A stretch of DNA of 64,000 nt from Ianthella basta (taxonomy: Eukaryota > Porifera > Demospongiae > Verongiida > Ianthellidae), in assembly GCA_964019415.1 (NCBI GenBank), contig OZ025878.1, positions 7,647,267-7,711,266 on the forward strand, read 5' to 3'. The position numbers and the translations under genes were made by a program. The notes beneath the pieces are model-generated. The model did no database searches. It saw nothing but the letters and a program-made list of their open reading frames with translations, and was not told the DNA's origin. Of the stretch, positions 39,430 through 43,823 are shown piece by piece (the stretch's first letter is position 1; the number at the start of each line of letters is the position of its first letter).

Positions 39430-42400
39430 ATGTCTGAGACGAAATCTCTCGAAATTCACGTTGGATACTGGTGAGCAGTGCTTCGACTTGTATTTAATTT
39501 AATATCTGCTATCTCTTCTTAAAAGGCTCTGTTTGCTAAAGCCTCCCCTGCCTCCCCTTCCCTCCGCAGCGGTGGATGAGGGTACGCCCCGCGGTTCAAC
39601 GCCCTTCAGACGAGGGTGCTGAGCCAGTTCCCGGACGCCAAGATCTCCTACAACATCACCAACCCAGGTACGTGTGTGTTTGTGCTGTTGTGTGTGTGTG
39701 TGTGTGTGTGTGTGTGTGTGTGTGTGTGTGTGTATGTGTGTGTGTGTGTGTGTGTGTGTGTGTGTGTGTGTGTGTGTGTGTGTGTGTGTGTGTGTGTGTG
39801 TGTGTGTGTAGGTGTGTGTGTGTGTGTGTGTGTGTGTGTAGGTGTGTGTGTGTGTGTGTGTGTGTGTGTGTGTGTGTGTGTGTGTGTGTGTGTTGTGTAA
39901 TTATGTATGTTTGTATTCCGATTGTACACATTTTCTCTTTCAATGCATGCATGTTGTTTCTGTGTATCCTTCATCTCCTCATACACATTATCCTCCTCTA
40001 TGGAATGTAGACAATCCTTGAGGAATCCAATAATGGTAGACAGCACCGCAGCCATAGTTCACATATCTGGGACCATGAACCAATCAAATGCCAGCATTTG
40101 CAGCTGGCCTGAAACCACACAATGATGCAACTGTGTCTTCAGCTACTAAATACTTCAGAGCTCAGCAAATACTGTAATCTGTCTTGCAATTGTGGGATTC
40201 TTAATTTGAAGAAGAATTTGAGAATGGTAGTACAGTGGAACTTGTCTAAGACAGTCACCTGTGGGCCATCTCTAACTTACCTTTATAGAGAGGTGGCTGC
40301 TCTACAGAGGTAGATTACAATGTTTTAGTGCTATTTAGGGCCAGGGAGGCTGGCTGGTTTAGAGAGGTGGCTGCCTAACGCAGTGACCATCTTAGACAGG
40401 TTCCACTGTATAGTAGTTGTCATCTGTGAAAATTACTTACAAACCTCCTCTGCAACTGCCTCTTCACAATTTGCATGTTAGCCCCACAAGTATAAGAACA
40501 AGTACTGTAGTGGGTTGAAGGAGAGTCCTTATTGTTGGTGAGAAACCACAGTCAAGTATCACAGCAAGACTTCAACTCCCCTACTTTGTTCACATACATG
40601 TGTACAGAGTGTGTGTACACTGTCAACTCAATGTGGTAACACTTTGGATTGGCCACTCTCACACGAACAGTGTTCGGTGGTCAGTTGAATACACCTTTTC
40701 TAACGAAATTAACATTGTGTTTCATTATCCAGTAAAGCTTACTCAGGCAGCTATTCACAGAGAATATATTTTAAGATGTGCACAATAGCGGCCATTTTGG
40801 AGCTATGTTTTCAAGTATGAGTGCACTAGAAAGGGTTGGTTCTCTAATACCAGCTTCCCAACAGGGTTGAAAACCTTGCCGACGTTTTCAACCAGATTCT
40901 CTGGTCTTCTTCAGGGCGAAGATGACTGAATAATTCAACAATAATAGTCACACTGTCGGGTTTAATTGGGGTAGCTAGGTATATTGTTAACAGTGAATAT
41001 CACCCCATCATAGTCTCCTCCTCACACACAGAGCTACATCATCCATAGCACGTAGCCACTGTCTCCCTCTGTTACAACCACACACTTCAGTACCAACACA
41101 AGTGCACTGTGTGAAGTCATCTACGAAAGATAAGAATTCATGCTGGAATTTGATTGGTTGTTTACAGCACAGTACACGGCACGTTCACGCACCACCTCAT
41201 ATTGTTCTTGTGCCCTCCTTGTGCTGTGGTAGGGTAAGAAGTGCAGGCGGTACCCCTGTACTGCTCTTTCGCTGTTTCACAAAAGAATGACTGTTCTTCT
41301 AACAAGTCCTTGCTTTGGAGCGCATTGGTACTGAAGTGTGTGGTTATAACAGAGGAAGACAGTGGCTATATGTTATGGATGATGTAGCTCTGTGTGTGAA
41401 GAGGACACTATGATATTCACTGTTAACAGTACGTATAACTAGCTACCTCAATTAAACCAGACAGTGTGACTAATATTGTCGAATTATTTAGTCAGCATCT
41501 CGCCGTCGTAATTGAAACTGCTTGGGTAAAAGTGATGGCACTGTCCACGTCAATGCATGCTGGTGAGTTAGACTGGTCTCTAAATAACGGACATGTTGGG
41601 ATCAGCCACTTTGTCCTGTACAGAGAGGATGTCCTTTTTCAGAGGTGGAAAATACATTGGCATAGTAGATTGGGACAGTAAATTTTGTCCTTTATAAGGA
41701 GACAATTTGTATTATATCCTTTATAGGGAGCGCTTCCTTTAATAGAGATTCCATTGTAGGTGTGTGTGTTGATTCGACTACAAAGGAGATGGTTCCTTCC
41801 TGATTGACGCTCGTATGTAGCTGCGGTGGTTTCTAGTCTGGAAGTGGTGTGGGGGGCATTTCAGGAGATGAGGCTGCTACCACATAAGAGAGGCATTTTA
41901 TACTGTTATCATTGGCCAGTATACATACTAAATCCTCAATAGTCTCCCACCATGCATTGCTCAATATATACAGTGAAACCTCCGATGAAGGACACTCTGA
42001 AAGAGGATAAACCTCCAAACAATGGACAAGCTGATAGTACACTTGTATACACACTTTATGCAGAATAACCTCCGAAAGAGGACAACCTCCCTCCAAAGGG
42101 CAAAATGCTGGGTCCCAAGCGTGTCCTTTATTTGGAAGTCCCACTGTACAATGCAGTCATATTGATACCTGTAACTCCAATATAATATTAGAATACCGCC
42201 TAACATTTATTGAATTATAGCGACAGAAGGAGAGCAAGCAGCTTTGTCAGGGCAGCTAGTGTGAATGTGTTTTTATGTGTGTACTAACTGTACACACTTG
42301 TTGTGACAGGTTTAATCCAGTTTGGTTGAAAGTGACTATTAGTAGAGTGCTAACAGTAGTGCCACTGTTCCATATCAGACAATGCTCAGTTTAAGGTCAA

Positions 42401-43823
42401 CCCCAAGTATGGTGTGCTGTCATAAAAGGGAATCACGTGTGTGTGTGTGTGTGTGTGTGTGTGTGTGTGTGTGTGTGTGTGTGTGTGTGTGTGTGTGTGT
42501 GTGTGTGTGTGCGTGTGTATGTGTGTGTGTGCGTGTGTGTGTGTGTGTGTAGCTGTTCACACTTAGTCTGTACTATGTGAAGGCCTGAATGGCCAGGTAT
42601 GGTATCCCAGTTACATTTTGTTCACACTAGCTAGAATTTCACAATTTTCAGACATTTCAGTTACATCAGTGTCATTGTCATTCATCACGGAGTTAATCAT
42701 TCACTGATGAAGATAGCTAGTAACTACCAAAACATCTGAAAATTATGAAGTTCAAGCTCGTAAGCACTGTCCCACGATCTGTACCTGCTAGCTTCCAACT
42801 GCTTGGGGATGTGATGTGATGTGATGTGATGTGATGTGATGTGATGTGATGTGTGCAGGTGACTTTGAAGTGACGGTGAACGGGAACCTCCTCTACTCCA
42901 AGAGGAAGACAGGGTCCTTCCCTGACATGGACCTTGTGAGTGCACCACAAGGAACTCCTCTGGCACAATAGCAGTCACACAGACTGAGAAGGAACACAGC
43001 TGTCAATGAAAACTCAAATACTGGACATTTTGACCTGAGACAAAGACACTACTTTTTGTAGCAGTCAACAAATACCCTCTCTTCGAAATGTCCTTCAATA
43101 TTTGAGCATTCATTGACAGTTGTATTCCAGCTTGGTGTGTGACTGCCGTCTGATTATTTAACTCAACTCTGAGCCTCTACATCAAGGGTGTAGCCAGTAA
43201 TCTGGGAGGGGGGTTCTAGTAACAAGGATGCATACCATATGACTCGTATGATGTCACTAATAAATGGCCACCAACGAACAGGTGGGGTCTGGTACGTAAC
43301 CATTTACCGTTAAACAAGACATTGTCTGCTAGCTAGCGCGTGCATGTGCCAGACTTCTGGCTACCTAAATGCACTTAATTCATGGCCACAGTCAAGAGGG
43401 AGGGGGGTTTGTCCGAACCCCTCAACCCCCCCCCCCCCCCCCCCCTGGCTACACCCTTGTACATTGTCAGCACATTTGTTCTCTCTCAGCGGGCCAACAT
43501 GGTCTCAGCAAATGCATTAGAGTGCATACATCACACACTGTGTCACGAGGCTCTCCCTGCATTCAGCTACTGCACCTCACAGAAGAAGATGACACCCTCT
43601 CCCACACCCAACCATCCACTAGCCACTCCTCACATGCATAAACCAGTGCACCCTAGCTTCTTAAGTTTTTTTCGCTACACACCTTGAGGTGAGTGAGTCA
43701 CTAATCCTCTGTTGTGTTTGTTGTCTGCATATACAGCTACTGAAGAAGATGGACGCAATCACCAAGGGACAGGACCCAGACGCCATTAAGGACACGTCCT
43801 CCGCTGGCTGTGTGCTCTTGTAA
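39430..43823 (+). CDS. SELENOW: Selenoprotein W / MIEN1-family protein with in-frame TGA (Sec)
   Basis: Four exons: 39430-39470, 39570-39667, 42859-42935, 43737-43823. These total 303 nt for a 100-aa product if TGA at 39577-39579 is selenocysteine. The thioredoxin-like Rdx fold is expected, with redox motif C14-G-G-U17. It is followed by FPDAKISYNITNPGDFEV and NGNLLYSKRKTGSFPDMDL, the SelW/MIEN1 pattern. The last four residues, CVLL, form a CaaX-type prenylation box, as MIEN1 ends CVIL. All introns are GT-AG, with phases 2, 1 and 0. Homology resumes directly after the TGA, and a SECIS element lies 65 nt after the stop. The closest type is an invertebrate SelW2/Rdx12 (MIEN1) that keeps Sec. 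Confidence 0.9.
39689..39893 (+). repeat. (TG)n in selenoprotein intron 2
   Basis: About 200 bp of TG starting about 20 nt after the exon 2 donor. Confidence 0.95.
40233..40408. mobile_element. MITE with TA target site, CAGTGGAAC ends
   Basis: Terminal inverted repeats cagtggaacttgtctaaga / tcttagacaggttccactg flanked by TA on both sides, as expected for Tc1/mariner-type non-autonomous elements. Length 176 bp. Confidence 0.8.
40923..41494. mobile_element. Foldback element with 170-bp inverted arms
   Basis: Arms 40923-41096 and 41325-41494 are reverse complements (gtcacactgtc...cacttcagtaccaa). The interior of about 230 bp has no coding sequence. Just upstream, 40830-40922, is a single arm of the 44919-45140 hairpin family. 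Confidence 0.85.
41971..42146. mobile_element. MITE with TA target site, second family member
   Basis: Ends cagtgaaacctccgatgaa and ...ggaagtcccactg, flanked by TA. Same terminal CAGTGRAAC motif and length as the 40233 element, with different interior. Confidence 0.75.
42437..42550 (+). repeat. (GT)n in selenoprotein intron 2
   Basis: About 110 bp of GT with a few GC interruptions. Confidence 0.95.
42806..42854 (+). repeat. (GTGAT)n next to the exon 3 acceptor
   Basis: About nine GTGAT pentamers end four bases before the exon 3 acceptor (CAG at 42856-42858), so the intron lacks a normal polypyrimidine tract there. Confidence 0.9.
42971..43146. mobile_element. MITE with about 65-bp inverted ends
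   Basis: gcagtcacacagactgag... at the left matches, inverted, ...cttggtgtgtgactgc at the right; total 176 bp, no coding sequence, in selenoprotein intron 3. Confidence 0.75.
43183..43459. mobile_element. MITE with CAAGGGTGTAGCCAG ends
   Basis: 15-bp perfect inverted ends (caagggtgtagccag / ctggctacacccttg) flanked by TACAT on both sides, a likely target duplication. The interior ends in a long C run. In selenoprotein intron 3. Confidence 0.8.

Follow-up and report, generated by a model that had tools for sequence, protein, structure and literature searches.

Can one protein carry both selenocysteine (Sec) and a lipid anchor? This question is raised by a locus of the sponge Ianthella basta, where a short four-exon gene with an in-frame TGA in a CxxU motif also ends in a CaaX box. 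We analyzed a 64,000-nt window of contig OZ025878.1 (assembly GCA_964019415.1, positions 7,647,267 to 7,711,266 of the forward strand), and all positions given here are those of this whole window. Judged from its sequence, the gene very likely encodes a functional, Sec-decoded protein of the thioredoxin-like Rdx family (SelW/SelT/SelH/Rdx12). The gene and its associated elements are as follows:

39430..39470, plus strand: exon 1, with the start codon (MSETKSLEIHVGYC); the codon for C14 is split by the intron, and the donor is GTGAGC
39570..39667, plus strand: exon 2, with the rest of the CxxU motif; pyrimidine share of the acceptor, 0.88
39577..39579, plus strand: in-frame TGA, read as a predicted Sec17; CxxTGA in all eight confirmed bacterial relatives
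42859..42935, plus strand: exon 3 (GDFEVTVNGNLLYSKRKTGSFPDMDL), which gives a Pfam Rdx match by itself (26.6 bits)
43737..43823, plus strand: exon 4, with the tail, CVLL, and the TAA stop
43809..43820, plus strand: codons of the CaaX box CVLL, read from the sequence (Cys97, 43809-43811)
43889..43952, plus strand: predicted Sec insertion sequence (SECIS) element in the 3' untranslated region (UTR), matching RF00031 at 32.2 bits (model positions 1-64), with AUGA at 43897, the AA loop at 43912, and UGAU at 43938

Analysis of the gene structure revealed GT-AG borders at all introns, and splicing at the junctions that the first-pass annotation had proposed (39470/39570, 39667/42859, and 42935/43737) kept the frame open over 303 nt, giving a product of 100 residues: MSETKSLEIHVGYCGGUGYAPRFNALQTRVLSQFPDAKISYNITNPGDFEVTVNGNLLYSKRKTGSFPDMDLLLKKMDAITKGQDPDAIKDTSSAGCVLL. 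The spliced frame contains a single in-frame TGA and no other internal stop or frameshift, and it is terminated by TAA. The start ATG has A at position -3, with an in-frame TAG located 15 nt upstream (39415). If the first intron were left unspliced, the frame would stop after ...GYW; splicing of exon 1 to exon 2 proceeds in the correct phase and reads ...GYCGG(TGA)GY, reproducing the Y-C-G-G-TGA-G-Y arrangement described earlier and yielding the redox motif C14-G-G-U17. The four exons with a TGA at the CxxU position are thereby confirmed as a real gene structure. A transcript might instead be spliced around the TGA through an acceptor deeper in exon 2, where two downstream in-frame AG dinucleotides would allow the exon to start at 39615 or 39624, but this would cost the protein its CxxU motif and no fewer than 15 residues, would use AGs that by eye lack the pyrimidine-rich tract found at the 39570 acceptor, and would leave the SECIS element unexplained; we consider such splicing extremely improbable.

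Database comparison of the spliced product placed it in the Rdx family. Pfam returned one match, Rdx (PF10262), with a score of 67.1 bits against a curated cut-off of 22.6 (E 1.6e-18, residues 9-77), and this match draws on all four exons, crossing the TGA and three exon borders. Among the solved structures in PDB, the best match was MIEN1 (2LJK; 43.5 bits, E 3.1e-10) over residues 7-99, starting at residue 25 of the 2LJK chain. Mouse SelW (2NPB) was matched at 34.0 bits (E 2.8e-7, residues 7-79), and bacterial SelW-like proteins were also found. In the structure alignments, the TGA column corresponds to the second cysteine of CxxC. The SelW/MIEN1 similarity that the first-pass annotation had ascribed to exons 2-4 is thus borne out by the Rdx match and by the alignment to MIEN1 up to residue 99, and its proposal that the later exons continue this pattern to CVLL agrees with a joined frame ending in GCVLL.

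To compare the TGA position across relatives, we scanned prokaryote genomes with the protein and obtained 81 pattern matches, from which eight relatives were confirmed (L021-L028); most belong to Bacillota, together with an Anaerolineae metagenome-assembled genome (MAG) and a Nitrospirae MAG. All eight have CxxTGA at the place aligned with that of the sponge gene, in frames that are uninterrupted in the bacteria. Their identity to the sponge protein was 33-45%, a biased sample because the rows were chosen by short query peptides and every row contains FEVTVNGN, one of the six patterns used. The sole search pattern touching the Sec column had Cys there and so could not favor TGA among these rows. 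A CaaX end was present in none of the eight, each of which was read to its stop. A search of viral contigs gave 16 stretches that matched a pattern, none of which was confirmed as a relative. Bacterial Sec insertion works differently from the eukaryotic process.

A SECIS element, absent from the first-pass annotation, was predicted in the 3' UTR. A covariance search of 43820-44600 with an E-value threshold gave a SECIS_1 (RF00031) match covering the whole model, with an E-value of 2.2e-4 over all Rfam families in this local search. The AUGA core is located 74 nt past the stop codon and, in the spliced mRNA, 325 nt past the UGA. Across the genome (209 Mb), eight matches had E-values of 1 or less, and this element ranked third among them (E 0.0142), 134 of the 2463 first-look candidates having been scored. 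The putative SECIS element provides decisive support for the selenoprotein reading, which it strengthens. Several observations nevertheless weigh against that reading. The SECIS score of 32.2 bits is lower than the Rfam gathering score of 35, which explains why a scan of the entire window with Rfam at gathering scores gave no match. The folding energy of the element is unexceptional, both for the 64-nt element (z -1.74, with 13 of 200 shuffles equally good) and for a 101-nt stretch (z -1.34, 22 of 200), so the case for the SECIS rests on the covariance model and the location. Furthermore, the exon 3 acceptor is weak, with a pyrimidine share of 0.41, and is preceded by a TGATG tandem repeat.

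Searches of the sponge genome for the decoding apparatus identified a tRNA-Sec match of 75.4 bits on contig C18 and two further matches, one of 48.6 bits, likewise above the cut-off (47), and one of 41.9 bits. A thioredoxin reductase gene on contig C9 (L017) has a frame that aligns to the extreme end of thioredoxin reductases and reads GC-TGA-G, with the TGA at the penultimate, Sec, position (Pfam Pyr_redox_dim, 6.7e-15); a SECIS match of 26 bits (E 0.711) was found approximately 1 kb downstream of this TGA end. Read in this way, the predicted thioredoxin reductase with its SECIS is a positive control for Sec decoding in the same genome. A recognizable piece of a selenoprotein family was located upstream of four of the eight genome SECIS matches: the SelW2/MIEN1-like gene described here, L017, L007, and L016. 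L007 (contig C23) has a Sep15/SelM-like piece that falls under the Pfam cut-off (18 vs 26 bits) and does not include the Sec codon. L016 (contig C20) has a piece with an SC-TGA-G motif, which we take to be SelN-like; it matched no Pfam selenoprotein family and gave one PDB match with an E-value of 0.85. The loci L017, L007, and L016 are probable further selenoprotein genes of this genome, L017 being the supported one. Upstream of the remaining SECIS loci (L011, L013, L014, and L015), inspection by eye recognized no selenoprotein piece.

Sec is very likely inserted at TGA codon 17. This prediction is well supported because the SECIS element, the tRNA-Sec, the Rdx match across the TGA, and the TGA column in all eight bacterial relatives point the same way, and the selenoprotein claim of the first-pass annotation stands on the same evidence. 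The locus might otherwise be a pseudogene, or the TGA a true premature stop that ends translation after a 16-residue peptide. The TGA is in frame, the SECIS scores slightly below the curated value, and an exon-3-only partial copy on contig C45 shows that the locus was partly duplicated, all of which would suit a premature stop; yet there is no further stop or frameshift, every border is GT-AG, the TGA coincides precisely with the CxxU column, and the SECIS is the third best in the genome, which makes this explanation very unlikely.

The second copy of exon 3, on the 16-kb contig C45, differs at four of 77 bases, with two residue changes (N to T and Y to H). The flanks on C45 match the gene region at approximately 41877-43542 in a patchy manner, the longest piece being 962 bp at 80%. 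Exons 1, 2, and 4 were not found on C45 in a whole-genome search and in 11,000 of its 16,000 bases that were read. We considered whether C45 represents the other haplotype and rejected this, as only exon 3 was found and the flanking match is patchy; the contig looks like a partial old duplicate. When the genome was searched with Pfam Rdx, the default threshold gave no match because the exons are short, and a threshold of E 10 gave two, namely exon 3 of this gene and the C45 copy.

A separate observation on TGA concerns the mitochondrial cox1 frame, which is open only if TGA is read as Trp (12 TGA in 540 codons). AGA presumably occupies Arg sites and ATA Ile sites. This pattern fits table 4, the mitochondrial code of sponges and cnidarians.

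With Sec decoding of the gene as the favored reading, we compared it with MIEN1 (Rdx12/C17orf37) and SelW1 to evaluate its subfamily. The sponge protein is identical to MIEN1 at 28 of 92 positions, with Cys in MIEN1 where the sponge gene has Sec; its N-terminus is shorter, whereas the tail length and the CaaX end agree, both boxes ending in L (CVLL vs CVIL). SelW1 shares the Rdx family and the CxxU motif with the sponge gene and is identical to it at 24 of 71 positions (mouse 2NPB); the first-pass annotation describes SelW as having no prenylation box. The MIEN1 alignment has one single-residue gap and reaches residue 99, whereas the SelW alignment ends at residue 79, ahead of the tail, and needs a gap of three residues. 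Animal SelW2 in its Sec form, compared by published description only, is likewise an Rdx protein with CxxU. The score order, with MIEN1 above SelW, and the CaaX end favor the SelW2/MIEN1 branch, to which the gene probably belongs, and it may represent a form predating the change from Sec to Cys.

This assignment is weakened by several results. A 13-row tree, from which animal SelW2 was left out, did not place the gene: only one of ten inner branches was well supported, and several branches were long. By local alignment, three bacterial relatives scored 144, 142, and 129 compared with 124 for MIEN1, and a fourth equaled MIEN1. Moreover, the tail ahead of CVLL aligned to MIEN1 no better than shuffled sequences, 565 of 2000 reaching its score. 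The SelW2/Rdx12 identity given in the first-pass annotation is favored by the score order and the CaaX end, and the tree does not settle it. The same three results suit a different history, in which the gene would be of SelW1 type or a separate Rdx selenoprotein and CVLL would not be homologous to the MIEN1 box, being either convergent or functionless. We regard this history as unlikely, given that MIEN1 outscores SelW with the smaller gap and the longer alignment and that the tail length and CaaX end match MIEN1, and we keep the SelW2/MIEN1 assignment as the more probable.

The C-terminal tail ends in a CaaX box with Leu at X, which at the sequence level is the form expected of a geranylgeranyltransferase I substrate. 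The cited literature states that the last four residues of Cdc42 are also CVLL, that the CVIL box of MIEN1 is geranylgeranylated (PMC6738349), and that MIEN1 is thioredoxin-like and redox-active (PMC6738349, PMC3527542). Of the CaaX end noted in the first-pass annotation, the CVLL itself is present and lipid attachment is predicted; prenylation at this box in vivo is plausible. Under the mechanism that we propose, the SECIS in the 3' UTR would direct tRNA-Sec to decode UGA codon 17 as Sec, and Cys14 and Sec17 would, as in the family, form a selenenylsulfide redox pair at the CxxU centre, acting with putative redox partners. Cys97 in CVLL would be recognized by geranylgeranyltransferase I and geranylgeranylated, after which VLL would be cleaved and the new end methylated, again by analogy with the family. 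The redox centre would then be held at the cytosolic face of a membrane, as published for the Cys form MIEN1. Whether Sec and CaaX work together near the root of the animal tree, in a single selenoprotein that is prenylated and tethered to a membrane, is, in our estimation, evenly balanced.

Published surveys list SelW2 among the selenoproteins of bony fish, frog, and elephant shark, with mammals retaining only the Cys form Rdx12 (PMC3316567). Planarian, Schistosoma japonicum, and Trichoplax are reported to have SelW2 genes (PMC3828610), and the sponge Amphimedon to have one SelW (PMC3473315). Sec-containing SelW2 has therefore already been published, and the sponge gene stands out for combining a Sec codon with a CaaX end. 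Literature searches, with most subscription journals outside their scope, turned up no report of a prenylated selenoprotein among the papers listed. The words prenyl and CaaX were not found in the main text of PMC3316567, and the passages of SelW2/MIEN1 papers examined contain no statement on whether Sec-SelW2 proteins bear a CaaX box; the combination of Sec and CaaX may therefore sit unnoticed in fish entries.

Standard gene finders would stop at the internal TGA, leaving the selenoprotein catalogue of basal animals incomplete. Should Sec coexist with a functional CaaX box in this protein, it becomes possible to test an order of events in MIEN1 evolution in which the anchor came first and Sec was lost later; the lipid anchor of MIEN1, a cancer-linked protein, would then predate the replacement of its Sec by Cys. 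Early animals would in that case have carried a selenium-based redox switch at the inner surface of the plasma membrane, and the biochemistry of a lipid-anchored selenoprotein could be studied directly.

The surroundings of the gene in the window were also surveyed. Two C2H2 zinc finger frames lie on the minus strand at 37661-39345, divergent from the selenoprotein gene; by eye, a possible start ATG (MAQSQEV) is located at approximately 39180, some 250 bp from the selenoprotein ATG, and the two genes possibly share a promoter region. Farther away on the minus strand (31402-37120), Dymeclin (PF09742) was matched in four of ten frames scanned, three above the cut-off and the fourth (36791-37120) just below it (27 vs 28.6 bits); the frames are separated by long purine-rich and GT/AC repeats. 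A long interspersed nuclear element (LINE)-type retroelement contributes endonuclease and reverse transcriptase frames at 13581-16652 on the plus strand. On the other side of the gene, a purine-rich minisatellite with strand skew fills 18.7 kb from 45295 to the window end at 64000; its unit is 25 bp long (AAGGTAAGATCTGGCAAGATATGAC). By eye, similar sequence around cgtcggcaaggttttcaaccctgtt is found within intron 2 (40830-40925) and again downstream of the gene (44945-45115), there as an inverted pair; it resembles a short mobile element.

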